Made by a program: the position numbers and the translations under genes. From the NCBI RefSeq assembly GCF_965363235.1, contig NC_134847.1, forward strand, positions 55,584,439-55,648,438: a stretch of 64,000 nt of DNA. Direction: 5' to 3'. Of this stretch, positions 1,270 through 30,684 are shown in pieces (the first letter of the stretch is position 1; every line of letters begins with the position of its first letter). This stretch comes from Mytilus galloprovincialis (taxonomy: Eukaryota > Mollusca > Bivalvia > Mytilida > Mytilidae). A model generated the notes under the pieces. The model did no database searches, was not told the origin of the DNA, and saw only the letters and a list, made by a program, of their open reading frames with translations.

Positions 1270-4200
1270 GTAAGTTAGATAAGCCATATTGGCTTACTGA
1301 GACTGTACAATTTATTTGAATTTATTGGTTGCCAGTGTTATTTGTTGGTTAAGAGTACTTTTATTGTTAACAATAATCCAACCATCAATTTTTGAAGTTA
1401 TTAACCATCTTTATGATATACCATATGATGAATTGAGCTCATTGGAAGATCCAGGGGAAAGGGGGGGGGGTCCAGGGGTTGAAACACCTCCTTTTTTTGT
1501 GCCGATCAATGCATTTGAATGGGGACATATAGTTGGAACCTCCCTTTGTCCTGGGTTGAGACCCCCCCCCCCCCTTTTTAAAATGGCTGGATCCGCCCCT
1601 GTGAGCTGTATCATATTTGTCAGCAAAATATTTTAATTAAAATAAAATTGAGAATGGAAATGGGGAATTTGCTAAAGAGACAACAACCTGACCAAAGAAC
1701 AGACAACAGCCAAAGGCAGGCAACCAAAGGGTCTTCAACGCAGCAAGAAAAAATCCTGCACCAAAAGATAGTCCTCTGCTTGCCCCTCAATAAAATTGTG
1801 TACTAATTCATTGAGAATGAACCTCACAGTAAACTACCTTAATGTAGAAATTCAACGAATGGCATGGCATGATGTCATTTACTTTTTAGGGAATGAACAA
1901 TCATATTTTAAAAATAAGAAGATGTGGTATGGTTGCCAACGAGACATCTCTTCACAAGAGACAAAATCAGAAGTTAACATTTATAGGTCATCATACAGCC
2001 TTCAATAATGAGTAAAACTTATACCGCAAAGTCGGCCATTAAAGGTCCTGAAATGACAAAAATGTAAAACAATTCAAACGATAAAACTTACGGCCTGATT
2101 TATGTACAAAATAATGAACGAAAAACAAGTATGATACACAGCAACAAATGACAACCACTGAATTACAGGCTCCACCCTTAGTACAGGCACATACAGAATG
2201 TGGCAGGATTAAACTAGTTTAAGGTGTGCCAACCCTCCCCTAACCAGGGGCAGTCCGACAGGTGTAACAGTACAACACAAGATCAAACTATAAAAATCTG
2301 TTGAAAAAGGCTCAACTCATCGGATGGATACAAAATAAAAATACATCCAACATAAACATGTGGATGTAGCAGGGTACTTATACATCTCCACTACAAAAAG
2401 ACACTATATACAGATCTGATAGTACTCCCAGTTACTGACAGCTAGTTCAAAGCCAATGACATATATTGAAAAAATTCATGCATCTAAGAATAAAATAGTC
2501 TTGGTCCTGTAGATTAATCAATATCAAATCAGCAATTTGAATCTTTTAATACTATATTGGCAGACAGCTCCATAAATAAAAATTAATTCTACGGAATTTT
2601 TCAATTGAAATTTACATCTTATTTTTTTTAGGCAATCAACCATTTGGATTTGGAACCGCTTATTACAGAAACATATCAGATCTTTTCCCTACTTATTTGT
2701 TGAAAAACAGGTATGCACAACTACAACTTGTCAGCTCAATTCTAGGGTATACAATGTTATTTGGTGCATTAAGCTTTATCAGATATGATCACTTTGTGTC
2801 CACCTGCCAATTGTTAGACAATTTACTTTTTCAAAAATTATCTCTGAAGCTACAATTTCCATTTGAATTCAATTTGAAAATTAAAAAATATGAATGGTCG
2901 TTTACAAATAGTAATCCTTTCATTTTGATCAGATGAAAAACATGACTACTGGATTCAATATTTGGATTTGCCCAGTCAAATTTTAATACATTGTAACACA
3001 TATCTGTTTCTGTTCTCCAGAAAAACGCATAATGCTTTTGAAATAAAGCAGATGATTGGAATAACTTTTTGATTAAATGGCACATTATTCTCAATGAAAC
3101 CGCATTAAAATATAACATTTTTATCAACAAACTACTAGTCCTTAATACATGATCATCATTTGGTTCCAAATAGTTCAATATCCCTATAGTGCCTCAAATT
3201 TAGGTACTGAAATATAATATGTAAAAAAAAGTCAATGTAAAGAAACAATGGACATGTTGTAATTTAAGCAAGTGGCTGACCTTTAACCATTAATGCTGAT
3301 TTGAAGAGCAGAGGACCATAGAATAAAGTTAGAAAAAATATGGAGATATAAAATGCTTTTATAATTTACTAAAACCTTCTAAAAAAGTGATTGTTCAGAT
3401 AATTCAGTGACATATAGTTATCAAAAGTACCAGGATTATAATTTTATACACCAGACGCGCGTTTCGTCTACATAAGACTCATCAGTGACGCTCAGATCCA
3501 AATAGTTAAAAAGCCAAACAAATACAAAGTTGAAGAGCATTGAGGACCCAAAATTCCAAAAAGTTGTGCCAAATACGGCTAAGGTAATCTACTCCTGGGG
3601 TAAGAAAATCCTTAATTTTTCGAAAAATTCAAAGTTTTGTAAACAGAAAATTTATAAAAATGACCATATAAATGGATAAATTCTATGATTTCTTTCTTTC
3701 AGAGATGTACAGGACATTGAAGGTAGTCTAGAAGTGAATTCTGATGTGGTGGACTTTTCTATTTCTCCTCCTTTACCTTATATTAATCCACCTCTAGTTA
3801 TACAATTTGAGTATTTAAATGTAAGTTAGTTGTATATATATATAAATAGATGATCATTATATTATATGTACTGTAGATGAATAAGAACAGCAGAGTGTGG
3901 TTTAGTCTGTCTTGTTCGTTGTGATTATTTGAACTCTTCAATAACATTGGCACTCATACTTTTTAGCTCACCTGGCCCAAAGGGCCAAGTGAGCTTTTCT
4001 CACCACTTGGCGTCCGTCGTCGTCGTCGTCCGTCGTCGTCGTCGTTAACAATTTACATTTTGAACTTCTTCTAGAGAACCACTGAATGGAATGGAACCAA
4101 ACATGGCATGAATGTTCCTTATGAGGTGCTGACCAAGTGTTGTTACTTTGTAGCCGATCCATCATCCAAGATGGCCGCCAGCGGGGGACTTAGTTTAACA

Positions 4201-7200
4201 TAGGACGCTATTGGAAATGCATACAAATAACTTCTTTTAGAGAACCACTGAATGGAATGAATCCAAACATGGCATGAATGTTCCTTATGAGGTGCTGACC
4301 AAGTGTTGTTACTTTGTTGCCGATCCATCATCCAAGATGGCCGCCAGCCGTGGACTTAGTTTAACATAGGACCCTATGGGAAATGCATACAAATGACTTC
4401 TTTTAGAGAACCACTGAATGGAATTAAACCAAACATAGCATGAATGTTCCTTATGGGGTGCTGACCAAGTGTTGTTACTTTGTAGCCGATCCATCATCCA
4501 AGATGGCCGTCAGCGGGGGACTTAGTTTAACATAGGACCCTATGGGAAATGTATACAAATGACTTCTTTTAGAGAACCACTGAATGGAATGAAACCAAAC
4601 ATGGCATGAATGTTCCTTATGAGGTGCTGACCAAGTGTTGTTACTTTGTTGCTGATCCATCATCCAAGATGGCCACCAGCCGGGGACTTAGTTTAACATA
4701 GGACCCTATGGGAAATGCATACAAATGACTTCTTTTAGAGAACCACTGAATGGAATAAAACCAAACATAGCATGAATGTTCCTTATGGGGTGCTAACCAA
4801 GTGTTGTTACTTTGTAGCCGATCCTTCATCCAAGATGGCCGCCAGCGGGGGACTTAGTTTAACATAGGATCCTATTGGAAATGCATACAAATCACTTCTT
4901 CTAGTGAACCACTGAATGGAATGAAACCAAACATGGCATGAATGTTCCTTATGTGGTGCTGACCAAGTGTTGCTACTTTGTAGCCGATCCATCATCCAAG
5001 ATGGCCGCCAGCGTGGGACTTAGTTTAACATAGGACCCTATGGGAAATGCATACAAATGACTTCTTTTAGAGAACCACTGAATGGAATGAAATCAAACAT
5101 GGCATGAATGTTCCTAATGTGGTGCTGACCAAGTGTTGTTACTTTATAGCCGATCCATTATCCAAGATTGCCGCCAGCGGGGGACTTAGTTTAACATAGG
5201 ACCCTATGGGAAATGCATACAAATGACTTCTTTTAGAGAACCACTGAATGGAATAAAACCAAACATTGCATGAATGTTCCTTATGAGGTGCTGACCAAGT
5301 GTTGTTACTTTGTAACCGATCCATCATCCAAGATGGCCGCCAGCAGGGGGACTTAGCTAACATAGGACCCTATGGGAAATGCATACAAATGACTTCTTTT
5401 AGAGAACCACTGAATGGAATAAAACCAAACATGGCATGAATGTTCCTTATGAAGTGCTGACGAAGTGTTGTTACTTTGTAGCCGATCCGTCATCCAAGAT
5501 GGCCGCCAGTGGGGGACTTTTGAATGAAATTAAACATGTTCCTTTCCTTATAAATGAGGTTGTGTTGTCACTTTTAGCCAAATTTTATATTTTTTTATAT
5601 GATTTCAAAAACCCAAGTAGAATCAGGTGAGCGATACAGGCTCTTGAGAGCCTCTAGTTATCTATCAGTATTTTACGTGATTGTTTACTGTTAAGTCATA
5701 AAGGCCATGCATATCCTTATGTAAGGTCATTCAGGACATTGAGTTGTCTACGACAGATAAAGTTCAACTGAATTATTATGTCAAACTCCAAATATTACCC
5801 AGAGTGTAACACAAATTTGAATTTATTTAATTGTGACCATCAGATATCTTTCTTCAAAATAATACCTGTGAAAACTGAAAAGTAAAAAATATATTAAGGT
5901 AAAAAAAGATATCAATAGACAAAGATGAGGTCAAAGAAGGGAATGTCTGTACATGTACAGTCAAATCTGATACATGTATAAAGGTCTCCACTATTAAGCA
6001 AAAACTTGTATTGGCAGGTCACACTCTTCTTGTTCCACTATAGTTATACCTATAATTTTAGAACTTCAACCCAAAAGTCACCTCACTTATACATCCTTGA
6101 CTTTCATATATTTAGCATTGAGTGTTCCTGATGAAGGTAAATCCAGAAAAGCACTTCTAAAGCTTCAAATTTATAACATGATGTTTTCATTTTTGTAAGG
6201 GCAGTTTTCTGTCGTCCTAAGGATGGCCTTTAGTTTATATACAGCTTGACTATGATGTTTGGCATGTAACACCTGTGGTCTTCAGCTGTTTTTCGCTCTT
6301 TGGTCAAGTTGTTGTTTCTTTAATCTTTGACACATTCCCCATTTCCATTCTTAACTTTATGCTATTTTACTTTCAGACTGGATTAACTAAACCTGTATGT
6401 GGATTCTGGGATTTTAATTTACAGTAAGTAAATATAGCTGATTTAATGGTAAAATGGAATACATGTAGTCAGTTACACTTTATCAGATCACAAATTTACG
6501 AACAGATCATCGCTTAATCTTATAAAGATATAAGAAGATGTAGTATGAGTGCCAATCAGACAACTCTTGCTCCAAGCCACAATTTGTAAAAGTAAACCAT
6601 TATAGGTCAAAGTATGGTCTTCAACACAGAGTCTTAGCTCACACTGAACAGCAAGCCTTAAAGGGCCCCAAAAGTGACTAGTGTAAAACAGTTCAATGGG
6701 AAAACCAACAGTCTAATCAATATAAAAAACGAGAAATGAGAAACATTTATGAACCACATCAACAAATGACAACTAAAAGGATTTGATCCTTTAATAAACC
6801 TGTTGATAGATACAAATAACACTAACTGTGAAAGTATTTAGATGACCAGTTTTTTCTAATTAAATTTGTCAAGATCACCTTATTGATACTAAATGTGACC
6901 TTTATCTTTTTATGATACAGTAGTAGGTATATTATGTTTTCTTGTCTTAATGTGTCTTTTTGTCTCTCTATCCCATATCAGTCCATCTTCTTAGTTAAGG
7001 TAAATAACACTTTTTACAGGACATGTCTAGTGCTAATTTCAATGACAGGTAAGGTATAAGTGAAAATAATTTTATTTCATGCAAAACTACATTTTAGAGA
7101 AATGATGATTTTAAATTGAAAACCTAGTTTGTAAGAACACATAGTATACCTGAACATTAGGACCTCTAGTTGTGTCTACATCAATATGTGCTGTATACCT

Positions 7201-10200
7201 GAACATTAGGACCTCTAGTTGTGTCTACATCAATATGTGCTGTATACCTGAACATTAGGACCTCTAGTTGTTTTTACATCAATATGTGCTGTATCAGGCT
7301 GCTAGTTTTCTCACTGGATTTTTTTTTCATTTGTAATTTCATGGCCTTTGATATCTGACTAAATGTTGTATTGGGATTTGCTGAATGTTGAAGGCGGCGG
7401 TACAGTGACCCATAGTTGTTAACTTCTATCATTTGGTCTCTGGTGTAAAACTATGTTCTTGCTATTTAATTAACATTGTTTGGATTTTTTGGTTTTTACC
7501 TTTAGGTAATCACACCAAGTTTTCTTTATTAATATATATATATATGTTTAAACAATCTCAGGTTAGTATGAAAATTATTTATTTATATCTTCTTTTTGCT
7601 TTTTTTAGAGCCTGGTCGACTGAAGGATCTAGATTGACTCAAGCCTCAGATGAACTAGCAATTTGTGAATATGATCACACCACAAATTTTGCCTTGTTGA
7701 TGAGTCCAATAGGCACTAAGGTTTCTCATATATTTAACATTTATATCGTTTTTCTATCATGAATATGGGGGGGGGGAGGGGGGGAACAAGAATTTTTATA
7801 GGGTTTTCAAAAATGTCATTTTAAACTATATGTCTTTCATAAGTGAATAGAAAAGTAGGTGTTAGCATGCAAATTTTCAAAAATACTTGAAAAATATTAT
7901 TTTTAACTTTCATAAGGGAGATAATTCAGAAAAATTTAGTTTCTACAACTAACTATTTACAATCAGGTTTTTTACCTAGCTCCCTGAGATTTTGTTTGTA
8001 GCAGTGTACAAGATCATAAAACATTCTATAAGGGAACATGTTAAGTGATGTTTCAACATCCAATCAGACCTTGACCTTCAAAAGTTTCATATTTCTTACT
8101 AAAAACTGTGAAAAACATAATCAGGTAAACTGCATTATTTTTCTGAATATAATCCTGCAAAACTATGTTCTAAATATTTAATTTACATTTTTTTGACTTT
8201 ATGCATTTACCTTATTGTAAACATTTCTCAACTTAGCTAGTTAGTTTTTTATTGTTTTATTCACATAATATATTGTGAGACGATGAGACATTTAAACAAT
8301 ATGGCAGTAAAACTTTGTGTCAATCCAAGTTTGAAGCCTGTCACTAGAACTATTTGAAATTGGGATACAAAGTCCTCTTAGCACAACCCATTATGGAATG
8401 TTTCCAGATCTTACATGCAGAGACAAACATAACTAACTATACAGATTGTTTCTACAATGGGTTATACTTTAAAGACTAAACAGCCTATTCAGTTTTACCT
8501 ATATTATTTTTACATTTTTGGAATGAAGGGTTTCTCAACAACTGTATTTTGTCATTTTGCAATTTTGTCTTTTTGAGTGTTTTCTTTAAATGAAAATTAC
8601 TGATGAACTGCTTTAGATATAAACTAATCAATAAAAATTTAATCAGAACCATGTATTTTTTTATACAACAATCAGAAAAATATTTATTTTTCAGGTGACT
8701 GAACATAAAAAAGCATTGAGTTATATATCCGCCATTGGTTGTGGTATATCAATCCTGTTTTTAATTATTACTCTTGTAGTATACTTTAAAAATTGGAAGT
8801 AAGTTTTCTGGAAGTAAAGTTATTTGAAGAGATTGGGTTAATATCTCTTAATTTTTACAGTAATACATACCTTATATAGCTAGTAATAACAAAAGGCAAT
8901 TGCTGAACAAGGAAATAACAGCAAACAGAGATTTAAATGTTTTTTGTTGTTAATTTGGGGTTTTACGAATGTTGGATGGGCATTCATATCCAACAGGTTC
9001 AATGCATTTGTTTTTTAACAGTTGAAAAATGCTATTTATATTTTATGTGTTGTTACTAATAATAAAATAAAAGTCAAGTTTGGTATCAACAATTTTCACT
9101 TTTGTTATTCAGGAGTTTATATATTTATATATTGTAAAATAACCTTTATCAATAAAAACCTGGAGACAATTTTCCATAAGAGACTCACTTACATAACTGT
9201 AAATCTAAAGGTCATTATATAACCTTCACCAATATTGAACATTTCTGATATTGTATAACATGGACTTAGACATTTTTTGAAAAAAAGATAGAGTAAATAT
9301 CAATTGATAAGCTCTGCATCATTTTAATGGAAATGTTCTATTTTATTTCAGTCAGATCAGATCAGACAAGGCAAAAATCCAGGCCTACCTATGTATAGCA
9401 TTGATACTTTCTTATTCCTTGTTCTTATGCTTGTGGGCACCATTATCAGACATAAGGGTATGTATAGCAATGATACTTTCTTATTCTTTGTTCCTATGTT
9501 TGTGGGCACCTTTATCAGACATAAGGGTATGCATAGCATTGATACTTTCTTATTCCTTGTTCCTATGTTTGTGGGCACCTTTATCAGACATAAGGGTATG
9601 TATAGCATTGATACTTTCTTATTCTTTGTTCCTATGCTTGTGGGCACCATTATCAGACATAAGGGTATGTATAGCATTGATACTTTCTTATTCTTTGTTC
9701 CTATGCTTGTGGACACCATTATCAGTCATAAGGGTATGTATAGCATAGATACTTTCTTATTCTTTGTTCCTATGTTTGTGGGCACCTTTATCAGACATAA
9801 GGGTATGTATAGCATTGATACTTTCTTATTCCTTGTTCTTATGCTTGTGGGCACCATTATCAGACATAAGGCTATGTATAGCATTGATACTTTCCTATTC
9901 TTTGTTCCTATGTTTGTGGGCACCATTATCAGTCATAAGGGTATGTATAGCATTGATACTTTCTTATTATTTGTTCCTATGCTTGTGGGCACCATTATCA
10001 GACATAAGGGTATGTATAGCATTGATACTTTCTTATTATTTGTTCCTATGTTTGTGGGCACCATTATCAGACATAAGGGTATTTATAGCATTGATACTTC
10101 TTATGCTTTGTTGCTATGCTTGTGGGCACCATTATCAGTCATAAGGGTATGTATAGCATTGCTACTTTCTTATTATTTGTTCCTATGTTTGTGGGCACCA

Positions 10201-13200
10201 TTATCAGTCATAAGGGTATGTATAGCATTGATACTTTCTTATTATTTGTTCCTATGTTTGTGGGCACCATTATCAGACATAAGGGTATGTATAGCATTGA
10301 TACTTTCTTATTATTTGTTCCTATGTTTGTGGACACCATTATCAGTCATAAGGGTATGTATAGCATTGATACTTTCTTATTATTTGTTCCTATGTTTGTG
10401 GGCACCATTATCAGACATAAGGGTATTTATAGCATTGATACTTCTTATGCTTTGTTGCTATGCTTGTGGGCACCATTATCAGTCATAAGGGTATGTATAG
10501 CATTGCTACTTTCTTATTATTTGTTCCTATGCTTGTGGGCACCATTATCGGACATAAGGGTATGTATAGCATTGATACTTTCTTATTCTTTGTTCCTATG
10601 CTTGTGGACACCATTATCAGTCATAAGGGTATGTATAGCATAGATACTTTCTTATTCTTTGTTCCTATGCTTGTGGGCATCATTATCAGACATAAGGGTA
10701 TGTATAGCATTGATACTTTCTTATTCTTTGTTCCTATGCTTGTGAGCACCTTTATCAGACATAAGGGTATGTATAACATTGATACTTTCTTATTCCTTGT
10801 TCTTATGCTTGTGGGCACCATTATCAGACATAAGGCTATGTATAGCATTGCTACTTTCTTATTATTTGTTCCTATGCTTGTGGGCACCATTATCAGTCAT
10901 AAGGGTATGTATAGCATTGCTACTTTCTTATTCTTTTTGCTATGCTTGTGGGCACCATTATCAGACATAAGGGTATTTATAGCATTGATACTTCTTATGC
11001 TTTGTTGCTATGCTTGTGGGCACCATTATCAGTCATAAGGGTATGTATAGCATTGATACTTTCTTATTCTTTGTTCCTATGCTTGTGGGCACCATTATCA
11101 GACATAAGGGTATGTATAGCATTGATACTTTCTTATGCTTTGTTGCTATGCTTGTGGGCACCATTATCAGTCATAAGGGTATGCATAGCATTGATACTTT
11201 CTTATTCCGTGTTCTTATGCTTTTGGGCACCTTTACATTAAGGTAAATTACTTTCACTGATAGAATAGAAGAAGAAAGAAATAGGTACATTTTTGTAAGA
11301 TTGAAAGCAAAATATTGAACTGCAAAACAGCAAAAATATGCAAGGTCACTGTATATTTACAGCATTAAGGAGGCACTTTGTAATTTCTTGAGTAAAAATG
11401 TGTATCACAAACAATTGTTCATAGTACCACTTAATACAAAAGGTTATGAGCTTCTTTATTAATAAGATAGGATTTAGAAACCAATGAGTTGATAACCCAA
11501 CAAATCAGACAATTAGAATAATCATATGATATAGTAAGCTTTGAAACATTAGCCAGTTAATATTTATATGTTGCAAATAATATCAATAAATTCACCAAAT
11601 AACAAAAGTTCACAATACCATGTTTTAGCTGCAGTGGGATTCCTATCTAGAAAGGTATTTAAGTTAAACCAGTGCTTTGAGCTGAATGGCTTTAGTTAGG
11701 CCGGCAAACATTTCTGCTCTATGTTGATTGTTGAAGGCCTCATGCATTGTGAGTTTAAGATTTAGAACAGCAATTAAAGCAGTGTAACAGTTCCGTTTGC
11801 TCATGTAGTGATTTTAGTTCAAGAATAGATACACTATATCCTTTCTTCTCTATATTTTGTACAGGCACTGTGTACAACCTTTGCAGTATTACTACACTAT
11901 ATTTTCCTGGTGGATTTCTCTTTGATGTTAGCCATGGCTATAGAAATTGGATTCCAAGTTCTTTATGTTTTACCAACAAAGTCTAGAGTCAAATGGTTGA
12001 TCCCAATTTGTTGGAGTAAGTAGTATCTGAAATAAGAATTTGTTGTAAAATTCCTAGAGAATGAAGCTAGGAGTCTTTGTATACCAAACAGGTTAAAATA
12101 AGCCATCTAGAAATTACAATGGTTCATTTATTTGTTGTTTGTTGTTCTAGTGCCATCATACTTTGTCTAGTCTGCTCAACATAGTTGAAATCCTTTCTTA
12201 AATATATGCTGTCTGCTGATGTTCATACATATTATTTTTGAAAAATATATAATTTTCATAATCATATGAGAAGTAAAAAATACATAGAAATAATAAGTAA
12301 ATTAAAATCATATGTATATGTATGTAAATGCTTTCAGTTATTCCAGCAGTGATTGTGGGTATTTCAATGGGAGCAACACAATTAGAAGGATATGGGGATA
12401 CTTCAGATATGTAAGTTTGTCTTGATCTTAAATTGTTTTTTAACAAGTTGTTCACCTATTCAAATAAATTGAAAATATAGCTATGTTTATACTATATTTA
12501 GGAAATAACACAACTAGTTGTAGTATAAATCTTAATACATTGTGTGAAATATCTTGAAACACTGTGTGTTATTTCTAAATACGTTGCGTTTTATATTGTA
12601 ATACATTGTGTGTAATATCTTAATACATTGAGTGTAATATCTTAATACATTGTGTGAAATATCTTGAAACACTGTGTGTTATTTCTAAATACGTTGTGTG
12701 TTATATTGTAATACATTGTGTGTAATATCTTAATACATTGAGTGTAATATCTTAATACATTGTGTGTAATATCTTTCAGTTGCTGGCTGTCTGTAGATAA
12801 TGGACTAATATGGGCATTTATAGGACCTGCTTTAGTTATTGTGTTGGTATGTATGAGATCATAGATCAAACTTTTGAGGGAATAAAGCCCTTGTATATAT
12901 GATTTATATATAAAAACAATGTCAACATTTTTTGACTTTATCTTATACTTCATAGAAAAATAAAATTAAAAAATGGGGTCACCATCCATTTACCCTCACA
13001 ATCTGCCTTCGAAAGAAGCATACATTTTTGTAAAAGTACTTATTTTCTGTTGAACTGATAGAAGAAAAGAGGTAATATTGAAATAAAAAAAGAACTAAAT
13101 TACAGAAATCGCTAAAATTTTACACTAGTTTAGTTTAAATACAGCTTATTTGAAAAATAATAATAAAAAATATAGGTCACCGATGATTGAAAAAAGATAT

Positions 13201-16200
13201 TTCAATTTTAATACCAAAAAATGGCAACTTTGCATCAAAGGGAGATAATTTGGAGCTTTTTCAATGATACATACATTTTAAAAGTCATCTGGGGCCAAAA
13301 CGAATTGATTTATTTAAAAGCTCGACATAGGGATAGTGATCCGGCTGTGGTGGCGTTAGCTAACTTCCTAAAAGCATTATATTTAAGAAGGTGGAAGACC
13401 TAGATGCTTCATACTTTGTATATAGATACCTCATGTTACGCAGTTTCCTTCAGTCACATGTCCAATGTCCTTGACCTCATTTTCATGATTCAGTAACTAC
13501 TTGAAAAAAAAGTTAAGGTTTTTTGTAATGTTTAATTCTCTTTTATTATAAGTAATAGGATAACTATATTAGGTATGTGCGTACCTTGCAAGATCCTCAT
13601 GGCAGTCAGACAGTTTTCACTTGACCTCAACCTCATTTCATGGATCAGTAAACAAGGTTAAGTTTTGGTGGTCAAGTCCATATCTCAGTTACTATAAGCA
13701 ATGGGTCTAGTATATTCTGTGTATGGAAGGAATGTTAGGTGTACATGTCCAACTGGCAGGTGTCATCTGACCTTGACCTCATTTTCATGGTTCAGTGGTT
13801 ATAGTTAAGTTTTTGTGTTTTGTTGAAATGATGAATGTTGAATTTTTATACCCTCGAGCCTCCTTAAAGGGCTGTTATATGATATAGGCATGTTTCCTGA
13901 AAGTGGTGTTAAATTAACTCCAACAGCAGAATAAACATAACAGTAAGAACAATACCTCTAAATCTTAAATCAAGAATCGTTCTGAATACGTATCAACTCC
14001 AGTAATTTTTTTTTTAAATTTATTTCAGGTGAATCTTGTCATACTTGTTTTAGTTATAAGGACTTTGTTTAGGACTATGAGTAGTAAACCTGGGAGATCA
14101 CAACAATCAAAATCTAGACTAGAAAAAACAAAGTAAGTGTACTTGTACTTTTTTAATATCAGCGCATCTGTATTACAGATAAAAAAAAATCCAATTACCA
14201 ATCCATAGATTATTCTTATTTTTATGAGAAATAAAATTGACTTTTTTTATACATAGATATCCATGTAACTAGTATAATCATCAACAGGTCATAGAGTCAA
14301 TGTTATCTAGTTGTTGTGAAAAATCAAAAAATGATTTTGCAAGGCTTATTGAGATAATGATGATATGCTTGTTTTGATGTTTTGCTGTATTTGTTTACCT
14401 GGAACTCCAATTTGAAGGATATGTTCCATAATACAAAATATGTTACCCTATTTTTATTTTACATCATTAAATGGAAATTAATGTAGTGGTATTTGTAGAT
14501 TTTGTGATTTTTAAGAAAACAACTTAAGAATTTTGTCAATTTTATGTGTCTTGTATACAATTCTTTATCAATTTTGAAAGAATTCTTCAGGAATATTTCT
14601 GAAAGGTATAGGGTAATGGTATAATTTTTTCAATTTTGGTTCTAACATGGCACAATCTTATGCAAAGCACTGTATCCTAACTGTAAACTGTTAAATGGAA
14701 AAACAAATCTACATCATTGTGAAGATTTCTTGGTTGCTGGCTTTTTTCAATGTTACAAGACCCTCAATTTTGCTGGTTTCTTGCATTCCAGTTAAAGACA
14801 TTTCTTAGACATTTTACAGATATTGTTTGTATAATTATAGTAAAAATGAACTTTTTTTTGTTTTTAGGTCTGGCGTAAGAAGTATTTGTGTATTGGCTCC
14901 TTTGTTTGGTGTCACATGGGTTTTTGGCGTACTATCTATGTCAAAAGATTTGGTAGTATTCCAATATCTTTTTGCAATATTCAACTCTTTACAGGTATGT
15001 TCTAAGGATTATTCTTAAATAATTTTATTTTGGATGTAACACATCTTCTGATTATCTGCCAGTGTTTTGTCTATCAGCTCATAGACGTAATTTTGTCATG
15101 TGACTGTGACGTCATCAACATTTTTTCATGATTTACTCTGGTTAAAAATGCAATTTAGAATTAATTATAGGGAATGACTAATATTTTTTCTGTCTATTTG
15201 ATATATCATTAAAAATGTTGTGCACACTTTTAACAAAATAACACGCTATGCAGGTTATTCAGTGTGCACCACATTTATGATGTTATATCTTCATAGACAG
15301 AAAAATATTACAGTCATTCCTTAGATATTGTATGATAATTAATGGTAGAGAAAAGAACAGATACTAAAATGGCAGTCTAAGACCTGGACCAGTCCAATAG
15401 TAAAAAAATGAGGGGGAAACTAAGATCAAATAATACAAATCAGACTCTTAAAAAAATGTGGGTACTGTAAGTGTTAAGGAAACAAATGCAATAGTCAATT
15501 CATACTACATTTTCCTTTAATTTTTCAGTTATTTTCAACATACATCATGTACATTTGTTAGTAAATATTTTGAAATACTCAATATAAATCATTGAATATT
15601 GATCTTAGAATAAAATCAAGTTTCTTCTTTTTCAGGGATTTTTTATTTTTGTTTTTCACTGCCTAATGGACAAAAGGGTAAGCATGTAAAGAAAAAATAA
15701 AGTATAGAGAGATACATTTTCACTCAGAGTAAAAGAAGTTTAGAATGATAACAGCTGATAAAATGAGCATCTTCAAAAAGGTCTCATATGAGATTATAAC
15801 AAGTTACAAAACAATTAGGCAAACTTCCAATCTGATTTAAATACAGCACCTATTCAATTACTATGCTTACAGGGTTCTAACAACCCTCTCTTCTACTAAT
15901 CCCATAATTTGTCATAAAGAGAAACAAATCTAATCTTGAATTTGAAGGCAGATATTCATTAGTTGATTTGAAAAGGTATCAAAACAGATAAAAATAGGTC
16001 ATTGTCAGATCAACACATGATCTGGTTTTTTTTTCAGACTAAGACTTATACATCGTTCTTGCTTGACATAAACCAGTAATGTAATAAAGATATTATAAAT
16101 CTTATTATTAGAACAAAAAAGGGAACAAAATATAAGACCACCAAAAAAGTGATTTGATGGGAAACTTTTAGCTTGTTATATATAGTTCAGCTTCTTTATA

Positions 16201-19200: not shown

Positions 19201-21800
19201 ATGTGTAACATTCATAGTACTACCAGTAAATTATTGTGGCATGATTCACGAAATACATGAAAGATCTATTTACACAACAGGAATGAGTATTTGTGTTAAT
19301 ATGTATAAAACTATTTCTGCAATTTTTCTTCAATCTTTGGAAATCACTGAAAAAAATACAAGAACCTCTGAGATGTTAGCTTATGTTTTGTTCACTTTGA
19401 TTACACTTTATTTCAGTATCAAAGTCTAATTTGTTTACCAATGACCTAACAAAGCTATATCACAATAATCTGAATAATAACCTTTATAACAAACAGGTTA
19501 GTATACTGTATAGTATGGTATTTCTGTTTGCATTTTTTATTTTGATTTTTGGAAAATGGAGAATTATGCATGATTAATCATTGTGAAATCTGCATTATGT
19601 TTATAAGATATCAGAATCCAGGTTTTATTATTGCGATACTGGACATCCAATCGCATTATTTAATGTAATTGAACCTTGCAATAATTTCTGAATCTGCAGT
19701 ACTGTAATCTTTATTGATATACGAATGAAAGGAATAAGTAAAATATAAAATATTTGAAACTTTTTAGGTGGTTTGTCTTGAGTTGAGTTAATACCAAAAT
19801 GCTCAAGTGGTAGAATGTTTGTTTTGTAGCAGATTGATTGCATTGATTGTCAATTGAGAATTCTATTTGTAGTAAACTTCTCTATAGTCAGTGTTTACTG
19901 CTTCTTGATATTAAGCACAAAGAGTACTTACAGGTTCTTTGGCACTAGGAGAATGTTTTGTGGATTGAATATTTATATTCAGCAGTTGCTAGTACAACTT
20001 TTTTATTTTGTGTTTTGACACACATATAAATATTTTCTTTCTAGCACACACCTATTTCCTGTATTGTCTGTATTTCATTTGACAGAATATTTATTTTCAT
20101 CCTGTTTTGCCCTGTCATGGTTAAAACTATATACTTGAAGGTTTTAAAAGTCCAGAATATTTATTTTTAAAATCCTCCTTTAATTGTGGATACATAATTG
20201 TAAATTATAGTTGAAAATTGTAATGCATGCTGTACTATATTAACAGTTTAAAAGTCAGTGAACAATTATAAATGTACTGTGAACTAGTTTTAATTTGATC
20301 CCAGTTTGTGCTTATTCCATTTTCACTGTGAAGTTTATATATTTATTGGTGAAATATATCATTGCAGTCAGAAAGAAAGGGATCACTCTTCAATAAGTTT
20401 GGACAGTCAATCATTTCAAAAAACCAGCAGGTAAAAATTATATTTATTTCATGAAATTATCTTATGTTATGTTCAGATATCAATAGCTTGGGCTATACAC
20501 AGGGATCACTTTTGTCTTTGTGAAGTAGTGTTTGTGTCATCCACATAATACTTTGTTAATCTGCATGATAATCCCAAAATCATTTTAACAATTCAATAGA
20601 ATTCAACCCTAATTGCACAGATTCTTTAAGGGCATACGATACAGTTACAGGGAAGGTAATGACGTTGCTAACGTAAAATGTTATTTTGGCGACGTCAAAC
20701 TCGGACATATCGGGAAAAGATGCATTTTTCGACCAATTTTTATCATTCAAACTGATTTAATTTGAAAACGAGTGCATGGACCCCTATTTTTTAAAACAGC
20801 AATTTGTTTCATTTTGCAAGGACATTATGTGACCCAAATTTTATAAAACTGTAAATAGCGCATTTTTTTTAATTTTGATAAACATGCAGCAAAAAATGAC
20901 ATTTTTCCTCTATTCATGAACGTTTGATAAATATAGAGTTATTTCGGAATAAAAATTGCATAATTTTTAATGATACTTATAAAATACAGAAATTACCAAT
21001 TATTTAACAAAAAACATTTTGTGTTTATCTTTTAAAACAAAAAAGTTATGTCTTTCTTTCGAAAAAGAAAATACGGACACAAATCTGAGTTTTGAGCAAA
21101 TACACAAAATTTCGAACTCATTTTACTCAAAAAGTAGCACATGAAGGTATATTTTTTATTACATATTTGATTTAATGAGGTAAAAAATAGCCTATATGCA
21201 AATTTTCATCAACTTGTAAATACAGGTTCAAAAATGTATCGTATGCCCTTAAGATTCTTCTGAAGGACCTAAAGTTGTTAGCCTACATTTTGTTTTGTTA
21301 CCTCATCTGGTCCATTGTCCATTGTCCTTTGAATTAAACTTTTAACCTGAAACTACTCGGTTGATTCATAGCAAAGCTTGTCTTCTCCACTCCATCTGTA
21401 TGTTGTAACTACAAAGTATGTAATCAACTAACATGGTAGCCTTGTCTAAATGTAAAACATAGGGTCAAACTACAGTTTATCATTAAGATGTAATAAACAA
21501 TCTGAGAAAAACATCATTGAACTTGTGCACATTGATGTTTACCTTGCGTGGATAAAAAAAAAATATTCAAAATCACAACTTGGCTTGCAGAATGTCCTAA
21601 TAAATCTGTAGCTAATGTTCTTATCATTTCAGTCAAAAGGTAGAAGATCTGCATCTCCTAAGAATCAGCTCTTGACAGCAAACCAACAAGAAGAAGGTTA
21701 CAGTCCATTTGGACGGGTACACAGTCCAATGAGGTTGTCTCCAGGGCACCTACCAGCAAGTCATTGGCAGCCAATCACTATTGACCTTGGAACTTTTTAA
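1150..21800 (+). CDS. Adhesion G-protein-coupled receptor, 3' part of gene (18 exons, 5' partial)
   Basis: Cell-surface receptor of the adhesion GPCR class (family B2). The extracellular GAIN domain normally cleaves itself at the GPS, and the seven-helix part then signals through G proteins. Eighteen exons sum to 1697 nt and join in one frame to 564 visible residues (numbered from the first full codon, 1152): end of GAIN 1-105, GPS 106-152 (C-G-F-W at 113-116, HTT at 144-146), TM1 about 167-190, TM2 205-228, TM3 231-262, TM4 273-292, TM5 312-336, TM6 361-385, TM7 388-410, cytoplasmic tail 411-564. TM6 reads LAPLFGVTWVFGVLS and TM7 NSLQGFFIFVFH, both class hallmarks. Exons: 1150-1269, 2632-2710, 3703-3820, 6377-6423, 7609-7720, 8695-8798, 9352-9457, 11865-12015, 12338-12410, 12780-12846, 14029-14132, 14868-14994, 15636-15677, 16448-16516, 17501-17567, 19417-19496, 20368-20430, 21633-21800. 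The ligand-binding N-terminus lies outside the window, so the subfamily cannot be named. Confidence 0.92.
1446..1605. mobile_element. MITE-like 'GGATCCGCC' element
   Basis: Short element with G-runs at the left (GATCCAGGGGAAAGGGGGG) and C-runs followed by CTGGATCCGCC at the right, so the ends are roughly inverted. Relatives lie at 17838-17990, 23251-23396, 24258-24412 and 25798-25955. It lies in the intron after exon a and explains the C/G homopolymers. Confidence 0.6.
1637..1800 (+). repeat. Dispersed repeat family B, copy 1 (partial)
   Basis: Begins AAATTGAGAATGGAAATGGG and continues through 'AGAGACAACAACC.GACCA' and 'AACAGACAACAGC'. The best copy is 58980-59475 (+). Other copies are 6245-6352, 40590-40990 and 51735-51950 (-) and 54387-54485 (+). 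Confidence 0.7.
1917..2345 (+). repeat. Dispersed repeat family A, copy 2 (long)
   Basis: Fuller copy starting AAGAAGATGTGGTATGGTTG and running past 'CCAACCCTCCCCTAACC' to 'GGCTCAACTCATCGGATGG'. It matches in reverse the copy at 35878-36312, which sets the family length at about 430 bp. Confidence 0.75.
2632..2710 (+). CDS. Receptor exon b: GAIN domain segment
   Basis: Acceptor ATTTTTTTTAG, donor GTATGC. It joins exon a by a split glycine codon and reads FGFGTAYYRNISDLFPTYLL, a GAIN-type 'YRN...LFP' segment. Ends in phase 2. Confidence 0.88.
3417..3676 (+). repeat. Dispersed repeat family C, copy 1
   Basis: Starts AGTTATCAAAAGTACCAGGA, with the core CCAGACGCGCGTTTCGTCTA, ACTCATCAGTGACGCTCA and AAGTTGAAGAGCATTGAGGA. 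At least five other copies lie in the window: 39078-39352, 45338-45655 and 63505-63787 on -, and 47621-47925 and 60189-60510 on +. Confidence 0.8.
3703..3820 (+). CDS. Receptor exon c: end of GAIN domain
   Basis: Acceptor TCTTTCTTTCAG, donor GTAAGT. It completes a split arginine codon and ends in phase 0. It reads ...PLPYINPPLVIQFEYLN, the usual 'P-V-x-I-x-F' beta strand just before the GPS. Confidence 0.9.
3965..5657 (+). mobile_element. Helentron/HINE ('pearl')-like non-autonomous element A
   Basis: Left end AGCTCACCTGGCCC with a hairpin (GGCCC AAA GGGCC). Then comes a CGT-repeat microsatellite (about 4009-4046), nine tandem 166-bp units, and a right part AGGTGAGC followed by the hairpin GGCTCTTGAGAGCC and CTAG. 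The terminal GCTCACCT and the subterminal AGGTGAGC are inverted copies. Stem-loop plus CTAG fits the Helitron CTRR end rule, with insertion between T and T. Short open frames on the minus strand simply follow the repeat and are not genes. Confidence 0.75.
4056..5545 (+). repeat. Nine-copy 166-bp tandem repeat (core of element A)
   Basis: The marker 'ACTGAATGGAAT' (with small variants) recurs at 4081, 4247, 4413, 4579, 4745, 4911, 5077, 5243 and 5409, exactly 166 bp apart each time, so no indels have been fixed between those points. Each unit also carries 'ATCCATCATCCAAGATGGCC'. Confidence 0.92.
5660..6244. other. Intron sequence, no feature
   Basis: AT-rich intron sequence between element A and a family B fragment. 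No exon, RNA gene or clear repeat is seen. Confidence 0.5.
6245..6352 (-). repeat. Dispersed repeat family B, fragment
   Basis: Reverse-orientation fragment ending CCCCATTTCCATTCTTAA, the reverse of the family B start. It lies directly upstream of the GPS exon. Confidence 0.6.
6377..6423 (+). CDS. Receptor exon d: first half of the GPS
   Basis: A 47-nt exon with acceptor TTTACTTTCAG and donor GTAAGT. It reads TGLTKPVCGFWDFNL; C-x-F-W-D is the start of the GPS motif. Ends in phase 2. Confidence 0.9.
6530..6780 (+). repeat. Dispersed repeat family A, diverged copy
   Basis: Starts AGAAGATGTAGTATGAGTGCC and contains 'TATGGTCTTCAACACAGAG' and 'AAAGGGCCCCAAAAGTGA'. Clearly older than the other copies. 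Confidence 0.6.
7145..7291 (+). repeat. Three-copy 49-bp tandem repeat
   Basis: Three nearly identical units starting TATACCTGAACATTAGGACC at 7145, 7194 and 7243, exactly 49 bp apart, within the intron between the two GPS exons. Confidence 0.9.
7295..7445 (-). repeat. Dispersed repeat family A, fragment
   Basis: Reverse-strand fragment recognised by 'GTTGAAGGCGGCGGTACAGTGACCC' -type sequence and 'AGTTGTTAACTTCTATCATTTGGTC'-type sequence, which match the 35878-36312 copy. Confidence 0.55.
7609..7720 (+). CDS. Receptor exon e: second half of the GPS with cleavage site
   Basis: Acceptor GCTTTTTTTAG, donor GTTTCT (weak but GT). It reads AWSTEGSRLTQ... and ICEYDHTTNFALLM. The cleavage tripeptide is H-T-T (predicted cut between the two T). 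Of the four usual GPS cysteines, the one in 'GC' is serine and the second of 'CxC' is tyrosine. Ends in phase 0. Confidence 0.9.
7763..8694. other. Intron before TM1, no feature
   Basis: Only a G-run at 7768-7783 and AT-rich intron sequence are seen. Confidence 0.5.
8695..8798 (+). CDS. Receptor exon f: TM1
   Basis: Acceptor TTATTTTTCAG, donor GTAAGT. It begins VTEHKKALSYISAIGCG and continues with a hydrophobic helix ending in VVYFKNW. Ends in phase 2. Confidence 0.92.
9352..9457 (+). CDS. Receptor exon g: TM2 (also unit 1 of the tandem array)
   Basis: Acceptor TTTTATTTCAG, first donor AGG|GTATGT at 9458. It reads QIRSDKAKIQAYLCIALILS and then the rest of TM2 ending WAPLSDIR, in phase 0. 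This joins exactly to the phase-0 TM3 exon, giving the usual TM2-loop-cysteine spacing. The last 69 bp (9389-9457) are the first unit of the 27-copy array that follows. Confidence 0.88.
9389..11243 (+). repeat. 27-unit minisatellite made from the TM2 exon and its splice donor
   Basis: Unit starts: 9389, 9458, 9527, 9596, 9665, 9734, 9803, 9872, 9941, 10010, 10079, 10147, 10216, 10285, 10354, 10423, 10491, 10560, 10629, 10698, 10767, 10836, 10905, 10973, 11041, 11110, 11179. Most units are 69 bp. Those starting at 10079, 10423, 10905 and 10973 are 68 bp, and the last is 65 bp and degenerate. Each unit is a copy of the second half of TM2 (23 codons), and nearly all begin GTATGT or GTATGC directly after AAGG, so each brings its own possible donor; units 9872 and 10836 start with C and lack it. 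The receptor frame is open through units 1-5 and meets TAG at 9746-9748 in unit 6. Long open frames on both strands in other phases follow from the period and are not taken as genes. Confidence 0.95.
11865..12015 (+). CDS. Receptor exon h: TM3, loop 2 and start of TM4
   Basis: Acceptor TATTTTGTACAG, donor GTAAGT. It begins in phase 0 with ALCTTFAVLLHYIFLVDFS. The cysteine is the conserved TM3 cysteine that bonds to extracellular loop 2. The class motif W-M-L-x-E after 'F-S' is L-M-L-A-M here. Ends in phase 1 within LIPICW. Confidence 0.92.
12338..12410 (+). CDS. Receptor exon i: TM4 and extracellular loop 2
   Basis: Acceptor AATGCTTTCAG, donor GTAAGT. It reads IPAVIVGISMGATQLEGYGD. Split codons at both ends close correctly. 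Confidence 0.92.
12528..12778 (+). repeat. Minisatellite directly abutting the TM5 exon acceptor
   Basis: Imperfect subunits of about 22 bp (TAATACATTGTGTGTAATATCT and variants) arranged in two larger units of 110 bp: 'ATCTTGAAACACTGTGTG' recurs at 12551 and 12661. The last subunit runs straight into the acceptor TATCTTTCAG. Confidence 0.85.
12780..12846 (+). CDS. Receptor exon j: loop 2 and TM5
   Basis: Acceptor ATCTTTCAG, donor GTATGT. It reads CWLSVDNGLIWAFIGPALVI. C-W-L is the conserved loop-2 cysteine motif. Ends in phase 0. Confidence 0.92.
13390..13845. repeat. Diverged ~150-bp tandem repeat (element core relic)
   Basis: 'GACCTTGACCTCATTTTCATGG' -like markers recur at about 13470, 13622 and 13770, roughly 150 bp apart, in the intron after TM5. 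The layout resembles the tandem core of a pearl/HINE element without recognisable ends. Confidence 0.55.
14029..14132 (+). CDS. Receptor exon k: end of TM5 and intracellular loop 3
   Basis: Acceptor AAATTTATTTCAG, donor GTAAGT. It reads VNLVILVLVIRTLFRTM followed by a basic, serine-rich loop. Ends in phase 2. Confidence 0.92.
14868..14994 (+). CDS. Receptor exon l: TM6 and start of TM7
   Basis: Acceptor TTTGTTTTTAG, donor GTATGT. It reads SICVLAPLFGVTWVFGVLSM and FQYLFAIFNSLQ, both strongly conserved in adhesion GPCRs. Phase 0 at the end. Confidence 0.94.
15636..15677 (+). CDS. Receptor exon m: end of TM7
   Basis: A 42-nt exon with acceptor TTCTTTTTCAG and donor GTAAGC. It reads GFFIFVFHCLMDKR, the class TM7 ending. 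Too short to be found by open-frame length. Confidence 0.92.
16448..16516 (+). CDS. Receptor exon n: proximal cytoplasmic tail
   Basis: Acceptor TATATTTGAAG, donor GTAAGT. It reads VKEAIKHHSKKRKAARMDSF, a basic juxtamembrane tail, phase 0 at both ends. This is the last exon upstream of the duplicated cassettes, so its donor could serve either. Confidence 0.85.
17501..17567 (+). CDS. Receptor exon o, tail cassette copy 1
   Basis: Acceptor TTTTTATTTCAG, donor GTAAGT. It reads ESKTRKTSETSAIDLTPKAS. The exon in copy 2 (25468-25534) is identical base for base. Confidence 0.88.
17838..17990. mobile_element. MITE-like 'GGATCCGCC' family member (inside cassette copy 1)
   Basis: Runs from GGCAGATCCAGAAATTTTCA to CCACCTCTGGATTT with inverted ends. 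It is present at the same place in copy 2 (25798-25955), so it was inserted before the duplication. Confidence 0.6.
18084..19106 (-). mobile_element. Helentron/HINE ('pearl')-like element B
   Basis: Read on the minus strand it starts ATACGCCCGTCGTC with a hairpin (CCCGTC...GACGGG). It continues with a GTCC-type microsatellite (plus strand GACGGACGGACAGACGG, about 19025-19060) and five ~160-bp tandem units. It ends with an inverted AACGGGCGTAT followed by the hairpin GCGC TAAA GCGC. Copy 2 of the cassette lacks it (empty site near 26045-26055). No coding capacity. Confidence 0.75.
18225..19018 (+). repeat. Five-copy ~160-bp tandem repeat (core of element B)
   Basis: The marker AAAATCCCCC followed by a T-run recurs at about 18225, 18382, 18542, 18702 and 18862, that is every 157-160 bp. 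Confidence 0.88.
19417..19496 (+). CDS. Receptor exon p, tail cassette copy 1
   Basis: Acceptor CTTTATTTCAG, donor GTTAGT. It reads SKSNLFTNDLTKLYHNNLNN and ends NKQ. Copy 2 has Y-D-N-D where copy 1 has Y-H-N-N. Confidence 0.85.
20368..20430 (+). CDS. Receptor exon q, tail cassette copy 1
   Basis: Acceptor ATATCATTGCAG, donor GTAAAA. It reads SERKGSLFNKFGQSIISKNQ. The protein sequence is the same in copy 2. Confidence 0.85.
20630..21248. mobile_element. 619-bp TTAA-target MITE (piggyBac-type ends)
   Basis: Perfect 13-bp terminal inverted repeats GGGCATACGATAC / GTATCGTATGCCC, flanked by TTAA on both sides (20626-20629, 21249-21252). The unoccupied site is seen in cassette copy 2 at 27560-27563. 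TTAA duplication is the hallmark of piggyBac transposases. There is no long reading frame, so it is non-autonomous. Confidence 0.88.
21633..21800 (+). CDS. Receptor exon r: terminal coding exon, cassette copy 1
   Basis: Acceptor TTATCATTTCAG. It reads SKGRRSASPKNQLLTANQQE, then a serine/proline-rich end finishing in TIDLGTF and TAA. The distal tail carries several SP sites (RSASP, YSPF, HSPM, LSPG). Copy 2 differs at two residues (L to Q, I to T). Confidence 0.9.
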   Translation, partial: SKGRRSASPKNQLLTANQQEEGYSPFGRVHSPMRLSPGHLPASHWQPITIDLGTF

Positions 21801-29589: not shown

Positions 29590-30684
29590 AACCGGATTTT
29601 TGTGACAAAAATGTCGGTTATTGATTTGGGGATGTACGGCGGGCGGGCGGGCGGTCGGGCGGGCGGGCGGGAATCAAATGTTGTCCGTGCATTAACTCAT
29701 GAACCGTTCAACCAAAGCTTTTAAAATTTTTATATGTTGTTACTGACAACTAAATGAAGGTCAAGTTCAATAATGGCGATTTTGACTTTTACCGTTCAGG
29801 AATTATGGTTCTTGAAAGATTGAAAAATGGAGTTTCCAGTCGTGTCGGTGCATTTACACATGAACTGTTCTACCTAAGCTTCTCAAATTTTAATATGTTG
29901 TTACTGATGACAAAATGGAGGTCAAGTTCAATAATGGCGATTTTGACTTTTACCGTTCAGGAGTTATGGTTCTTGAAAGATTGAAAAATGGAGTTTCCAT
30001 TCGCGTCCGTGCATTTACGCATGAACTGTTTTACCAAAGCTTCCCAAATTTTAATATGTTGTTACTGATGACAAAATGGAGGTCAAGTTCAATAATGACG
30101 ATTTTGACTTTTATCGTTCAGGAGTTATGGTTCTTGAAAGATTGAAAAATGGTGTTTCCAGTCGTGTCCGTGCATTTACGCATGAACTGTTTTACCAAAG
30201 CTTCCCAAATTTTAATATGTTGTTACTGATGACAAAATAGAGGTCAAGTTCAATAATGACGATTTTGACTTTTACCGTTCAGGAGTTATGGTTCTTGAAA
30301 GATTGAAAAATGGTGTTTCCAGTCGTGTCCGTGCATTTTCTCATGAACCATTCAACCAAAGCTTTTGAAATTTTTATATGTTGTTACTGATGGCAAATTA
30401 GAGGTCAAGTTCAATAATGACGATTTTAACTTCTACCGTTCAGGAGTTACGGTTCTTGAAAGATTGTGAAATGGCGTTTCCATTCACATTGTTGCATTTA
30501 CTCATGAACTATTCAATCTAACCTTTTCAAATTTTAAGATGTTGATACTGATGACAAAATGGAGGTCAAATTTGATATTGACGATTTTCACTTTCACCAT
30601 TCATCAGTAATGGTTCTTGTGATATTGCCAGGACACAAATAAATATTAATAAATCCGGTTTGCTGTCGTTGTGACAGCCTCTTG
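29590..30684 (+). mobile_element. Helentron/HINE ('pearl')-like element C
   Basis: Left end AACCGGATTTTTGTGAC, CGGG-type microsatellite (about 29637-29671), six 161-bp tandem units, an inverted AATCCGGTT near the right end, then the hairpin GCTGTC GTTGT GACAGC and CTCTTG. Same layout as elements A and B but different sequence. No coding capacity; short open frames across it follow the repeat. Confidence 0.75.
29750..30640 (+). repeat. Six-copy 161-bp tandem repeat (core of element C)
   Basis: 'TCAAGTTCAATAATG' (with variants) recurs at 29761, 29922, 30083, 30244, 30405 and 30566, exactly 161 bp apart each time. Confidence 0.92.

Follow-up and report, generated by a model that had tools for sequence, protein, structure and literature searches.

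The window analysed here is a 64,000-nucleotide stretch of the Mytilus galloprovincialis genome (G000:C10:55584439-55648438 of the species' own 1.385-Gb assembly). It contains on the + strand a receptor gene, here called gene A, in which the end of a coding exon continues into the following intron as a long array of tandem copies. All positions are given within the window and on this strand unless stated otherwise. The receptor portion of gene A consists of an exon with a GPS motif recognised by Pfam (AWSTEGSRLTQASDELAICEYDHTTNFALLMSPIGTK; 7609-7720, donor AAG/GTTTCT) and eight exons of the transmembrane (TM) region, and candidate exons are also visible further upstream. These are TM1 (8695-8798, borders AG/GTAAGT, conserved in the sister gene described below), TM2 (9352-9457), TM3 (11865-12015, starting with ALCTTFAVLLHY) and further TM exons at 12338-12410, 12780-12846, 14029-14132, 14868-14994 and 15636-15677. 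The GPS exon and the eight TM exons can be joined into one reading frame, with AG/GT borders at the TM exons and with TM3 attached via the first donor behind TM2. The TM2 exon, placed by Pfam and by the frame of the gene model, is 106 nt long, ends in phase 0 (...SDIR) and is flanked by introns of 553 and 2407 bp. The Pfam model 7tm_2 (PF00002) is matched with an E value of 1.3e-46 in gene A and 5.6e-47 in its sister gene B, and in both the match covers 3-250 of its 250 positions. The GPS match (PF01825), found directly before TM1 in gene A only, is marginal (E 1.1e-4, 23.1 bits against a cut-off of 22.5). Among solved relatives ADGRD1 is the nearest, followed by ADGRL2/L3. Judged from these similarities, gene A is an adhesion-type (class B2) / secretin-adhesion G protein-coupled receptor.

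The array begins within the TM2 exon. The last 69 bp of this exon, which correspond to 23 codons (9389-9457, LCIALILSYSLFLCLWAPLSDIR), form unit 0, the coding founder of the array, and run on directly into 26 intronic copies that extend to about 11245 (9458-11245), the last of them degenerate. An in-register cut of the sequence thus yielded the 27 tandem units reported in the initial annotation. Tandem Repeats Finder (TRF) called the same array at 9390-11235 with a period of 69, 26.8 copies, 93% matches and a score of 3146. The unit measures 69 bp in 22 of the 27 cases, the exon unit included, and 68 bp in four (copies 10, 15, 22 and 23, each one base short), so that the reported length of 68-69 bp applies to all but the degenerate last unit, which was cut at 67 bp. 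The sequence AGGGTATGT is absent from the + strand of the window's remaining 62,212 bases, and the array in gene A is real and far beyond chance. It sits in the intron that follows TM2, as had been stated, but does not fill it: the 1788-bp array makes up 74% of the 2407-bp intron (9458-11864), and the remaining part (11246-11864), which ends in the acceptor ...TGTACAG, is not alignable to the sister gene.

The donor of the exon is repeated together with the unit. The 26 copy starts comprise 19 AGG/GTATGT sites (the exon's own, at 9458-9463, among them), two GTATGC, three GTATTT and two CTATGT, in which the GT is lost. GT is therefore kept at 24 of 26 copy starts, in agreement with the earlier description of about two dozen nearly identical donors in series. 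It had also been claimed that any donor in copies 1-5 gives an in-frame product, and this holds as well: the first donor and the four that follow it (9527, 9596, 9665 and 9734, within 9527-9739) would add 0, 23, 46, 69 and 92 residues, respectively, all in an open frame. The first in-frame stop of the array, a TAG, lies within copy 5 (9746-9748) and would be taken in by use of the sixth donor at 9803; in-frame stops are present in three of the 26 copies (5, 18 and 19). Past the copy-5 stop, at the far edge of the array, there is also a donor-like site, AAG/GTAAAT (11243-11248). Donors were scored with vertebrate weights, and on this scale the seven other donors of gene A score 1.93-5.65. The unit moreover carries an acceptor-like TTATCAG (in the exon within 9443-9457), placed behind a pyrimidine-rich run and 8 bases ahead of the next donor. 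The unit could in principle be read as a 61-nt mini-intron (GTATGT...TTATCAG) with an 8-nt micro-exon, ACATAAGG, which in phase 0 holds a stop.

A DNA search of the same assembly, whose match counts are lower bounds, placed all 61 listed matches in two clusters, the window array and C10:55814630-55817010, and the search with the TM2 peptide placed all 50 of its listed matches in the same two. The second cluster, which the initial annotation did not include, belongs to sister gene B, located 221 kb downstream of A, which has the same exons and carries the same array in the corresponding intron. In B, too, use of the first donor lets the eight TM exons, all with AG/GT borders, be read in one frame. 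The array of B contains 33 copies after the exon, compared with 26 in A. At its 34 junctions, GTATGT is preceded by AGG in 15 cases, by CGG in four, by AAG in four and by AAA in one; five junctions read GTATGC and five are without GT. Units 1-24 of B stay in frame (unit 1 measures 66 bp) and are free of stops, unit 25 has four extra bases, and the open frame of the array amounts to 816 codons. The protein encoded by unit 0 differs between the genes in one residue (S/A). Over the TM exons the two genes differ by a synonymous divergence (dS) of 0.33 at a nonsynonymous to synonymous ratio (dN/dS) of 0.21, and both therefore look constrained.

The TM3 exon was listed at 27 places in the assembly, of which A, B and 14 of the 25 others were examined and 11 were left out; of 15 fetched stretches, one 147-bp piece overlapping another was dropped. 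All 14 examined paralogs have a homologous TM2 exon that ends like ...LFLAGVTQTENK followed by GT, and the first half of unit 0 is homologous to TM2 of these array-free receptors. This supports the earlier view of a coding origin for the founding unit. A 69-bp array was detected by TRF in none of the 14. In a tree of A, B and nine of the 14 paralogs, A and B are sisters with a support of 0.998, and the array would therefore date from the A/B stem, or would have formed in either gene and then been passed to the other. The exon unit starts with CTATGTATAG in A and with TTATGTATAG in B, both of which have TATGT in common with the donor; the stretch (C/T)TATGTATAG at the unit start shares TATGT with the donor GGTATGT. 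TATGT is thus a plausible short homology for the founding duplication. The B array ends with GGTATGTTTTTTAG, which looks like the old intron start.

The relationship between the two arrays is unlike that between the surrounding introns. None of the seven A/B intron pairs aligns, save for 38 bp beside one exon, intron 2 having been compared without the array. Distances between units were calculated from the 21 A and 31 B full-length copies, copies of other lengths being dropped. Between A and B the units are 7.6% different, compared with 5.8% within A and 7.5% within B. Units A3 and A24 are identical to B18, the longest exact match between the arrays is 89 bp, and the mean distance to the nearest unit of the other gene is 2.1 (A to B) or 2.7 (B to A) of 69 sites. 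The arrays have eleven unit variants in common where 2.1 would be expected (hypergeometric 1e-7), and seven of these occur in neither exon. Within the TM2 exon, A and B agree at 28/37 positions ahead of unit 0 and at 65/69 within it (Fisher p 0.010), which is what participation of the exon end in exchange predicts. Such similarity is unlike neutral divergence at a dS of 0.33 and calls for either exchange or very strong constraint; exchange is the preferred reading, since silent differences are low as well (silent differences per silent site, pS, of 0.13 between the arrays). We infer that the arrays exchanged or converted sequence since the A/B split, with the exon end probably included. Purely separate amplification in A and B is disfavoured by the shared variants and the identical units, although the units partly cluster by gene. 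As a separate observation, 12765-12858, an exon with a few intron bases, is 97.9% identical to B over 94 bp (21196-21289 of the joined stretch 55800000-55829999), as if recently converted, whereas the other TM-exon matches outside the array reach only 84-92%.

The copies were also inspected for signs of selection, and copies not 69 bp long were excluded from the counts of silent and replacing changes. Seven silent, 10 replacing and two stop variants are distinct in A (n=19), compared with 11, 12 and none in B (n=23) and with 13, 16 and two in the union of both (n=31). The expected silent share is 24-28%, depending on the transition/transversion (ts/tv) weight, which for the union gives 8.2 expected against 13 seen (p 0.044 at kappa 2). 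Over the range of weights, the p value of the silent excess is 0.019-0.069 for the union, 0.037-0.109 for the union minus variants present in an exon, 0.010-0.035 for B alone and 0.14-0.27 for A alone. Among copies, the ratio of replacing to silent differences (pN/pS) amounts to 0.48 in A and 0.40 in B, and to 0.44 between them. These signs are weak and suggestive at most, and conversion with a selected exon would give the same lean. Variation at the nine donor sites compared with other sites was 0.016 vs 0.039 in 21 A copies (three 68-bp GTATTT copies being left out) and 0.079 vs 0.045 in 31 B copies, which shows no consistent donor conservation; selection on the donor sites was rejected, as variation is lower in A and higher in B. 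The openness of the B array was likewise rejected as a proof of coding: a second frame is open for 603 codons, and openness is therefore a property of the unit. The chance of finding zero stops in B is about 0.28 (23 distinct variants, each with a 5.4% stop chance). Pfam detected nothing above the cut-off in the array reading frames of one A stretch and one B stretch.

The explanation that we favour, and hold to be likely, is a minisatellite seeded by the end of an exon and tolerated because exon definition picks the first of many similar donors, with later exchange between the arrays. The last 69 bp of the TM2 exon would have been tandemly duplicated over their own exon-intron border, either in the common ancestor of A and B or in one gene with later transfer. 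Every duplication would have recreated the donor at its junction, and the frame would have been kept each time owing to the unit's length of 23 codons and the phase-0 end of the exon; the array may then have grown by unequal exchange. The donor at 9458, the predicted main 5' splice site according to the in-frame gene model, the donor score and the rule of proximity across the exon, would mostly be used by the spliceosome and would give a normal seven-helix receptor. The later donors would be bystanders, from which minor isoforms may arise with at least one additional TM2-like helix, each helix adding 23 residues. Dominance of the first donor is expected because exon-defined minigenes with two identical 5' sites used the upstream site exclusively, as reported in PMC9225289. 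A retrocopy would reveal which junction is used, but no match spanning the joint of exons 2 and 3 was found in the own genome.

Several points weigh against this explanation. The proximity rule comes from human data and assumes that mussel introns of this size are exon-defined, and Reed and Maniatis, as told in PMC9225289, saw the downstream site win. With the vertebrate weights the first donor of A scores 3.16, tied with 18 others, and the edge site at 11243 scores 4.66; therefore the first donor has no sequence advantage. The array of B is a harder test of the proximity rule, as it contains stronger donors: its AAG donors (copies 8, 26, 27 and 33) score 5.48 and its four CGG donors 3.33, compared with 3.16 for its first donor. 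As for exchange, a tree of 60 units, the exon units included, shows seven A/B switches against 19.7 with shuffled labels, and exchange between the arrays was therefore limited; strong constraint on the units is the alternative to it. Finally, the microhomology origin is read from present-day sequence only.

A different outcome would be a working splicing ladder, in which several array donors are used appreciably, inserting between TM2 and TM3 further hydrophobic stretches of some 23 residues each, some of them functional, which would number 0-4 in A and up to 23 in B. We consider this unlikely. It would accommodate the five open in-frame donors of A, the stop-free 816 codons through units 1-24 of B, the GT that B retains in 20 of its first 25 copy starts, some of its donors being stronger than the first, the silent lean (13 of 31 distinct variants with 8.2 expected, and 11 of 23 in B alone), the pN/pS of 0.40-0.48 and the use of two downstream repeat units as donors in human IFI6 (PMC4526556). 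However, the openness of B is a property of the unit, as the second frame of 603 codons indicates, and a stop-free run has a chance of about 0.28; the silent excess varies with the ts/tv weight, is not significant in A alone (7/19) and could be caused by exchange with the selected exon. A single added helix would also be expected to invert the remainder of the receptor. Slightly less probable still is that the copies serve as a store of gene-conversion donors for the coding end of TM2, homogenising or diversifying TM2 and extracellular loop 1. The exon ends of A and B are indeed more alike than the starts of the TM2 exon, and exon unit A0 is one base apart from array unit A6, as is B0 from B2, but the direction of transfer is not readable from one assembly, and with unit 0 differing by one residue (S/A) no diversification is visible. 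A combination of the two, with the B array as a live exon extension whose donors along 24 open copies give a receptor ladder and both arrays as a shared store rewriting TM2 ends, seems less probable than either.

Tandem arrays are generally error-prone in assemblies, and a repeat collapsed or expanded at one place had to be considered. Such an artefact is highly improbable because a second, diverged array is present in the sister gene with unrelated flanks. The two separate arrays have different unit orders and lengths, and their copies are about 6-8% apart, unlike machine-made copies.

The initial annotation regarded a repeated unit with its own splice site as more exceptional than it is, since the human IFI6 and ABCA7 minisatellites carry repeated donors. 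The IFI6 unit is about 12 bp long (four codons). In IFI6 (6-16/G1P3), too, an intragenic minisatellite has units that supply several splice donors, and two downstream repeat units serve as donors, which results in three mRNA species (PMC4526556, citing Turri et al. 1995). In contrast, the mussel unit has 69 bp, encodes a transmembrane helix and is found in a receptor and its sister gene, and downstream use, reported for IFI6, is here no more than possible. In ABCA7, a variable number tandem repeat in intron 18 has a 25-bp unit, the first two bases of which are the GT of exon 18, in about 12-427 copies, and retention of one unit and skipping of exon 19 were found (PMC5954066). There the tandem array begins at the donor of the exon and repeats it, as in the mussel, but its unit is classed as intronic and lies next to exon 18 within low-complexity, C-rich sequence. 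It is also not a multiple of three, so that retention of one unit shifts the frame, unlike the mussel unit of 23 codons. Gene A belongs to this kind of donor-bearing minisatellite, as its array starts at the exon donor and repeats it, with 19 sites identical in nine bases among the 24 that keep GT. In the intron gain described in PMC4974935 for a potato RNA-dependent RNA polymerase gene, a tandem duplication across an exon-intron border copied splice signals and exon sequence; a single duplication there gave a new intron, whereas dozens of copies lengthen an existing one in the mussel gene. Among the matches listed in a literature search, with subscription papers mostly outside its scope, no mussel or receptor case like this was found. 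The kind is therefore already known from IFI6 and ABCA7, and what is new is that the unit is coding and the size of a helix and that two diverged sister genes carry it. The minisatellite seeded by the end of a coding exon can still be recognised in A and B alike, in contrast to the introns around it. The locus is a naturally occurring system for testing how the spliceosome selects one of many similar donors 69 nt apart, where the minigenes of PMC9225289 compared two. Moreover, the two arrays, with their different lengths and donor losses, could show whether it is always the donor closest to the upstream acceptor that prevails, in B even against stronger ones.

Further repeats were noted in and around the gene. 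A second minisatellite of 22/44-bp units (12518-12775) ends 5 bp before the exon at 12780, and its last unit enters the acceptor ...ATATCTTTCAG; TRF listed no array at the matching acceptor in intron 4 of B. Two of the receptor loci on C10 (L030 and L031) lie about 94 kb from each other and have nearly identical TM1-TM3 matches; towards the end of the TM1 match a stop is read in L031 but not in L030. Elsewhere in the window, arrays of 166-bp units (4064-5519, 8.8 copies) and of 161-bp units (29682-30619, 5.8 copies) are present.

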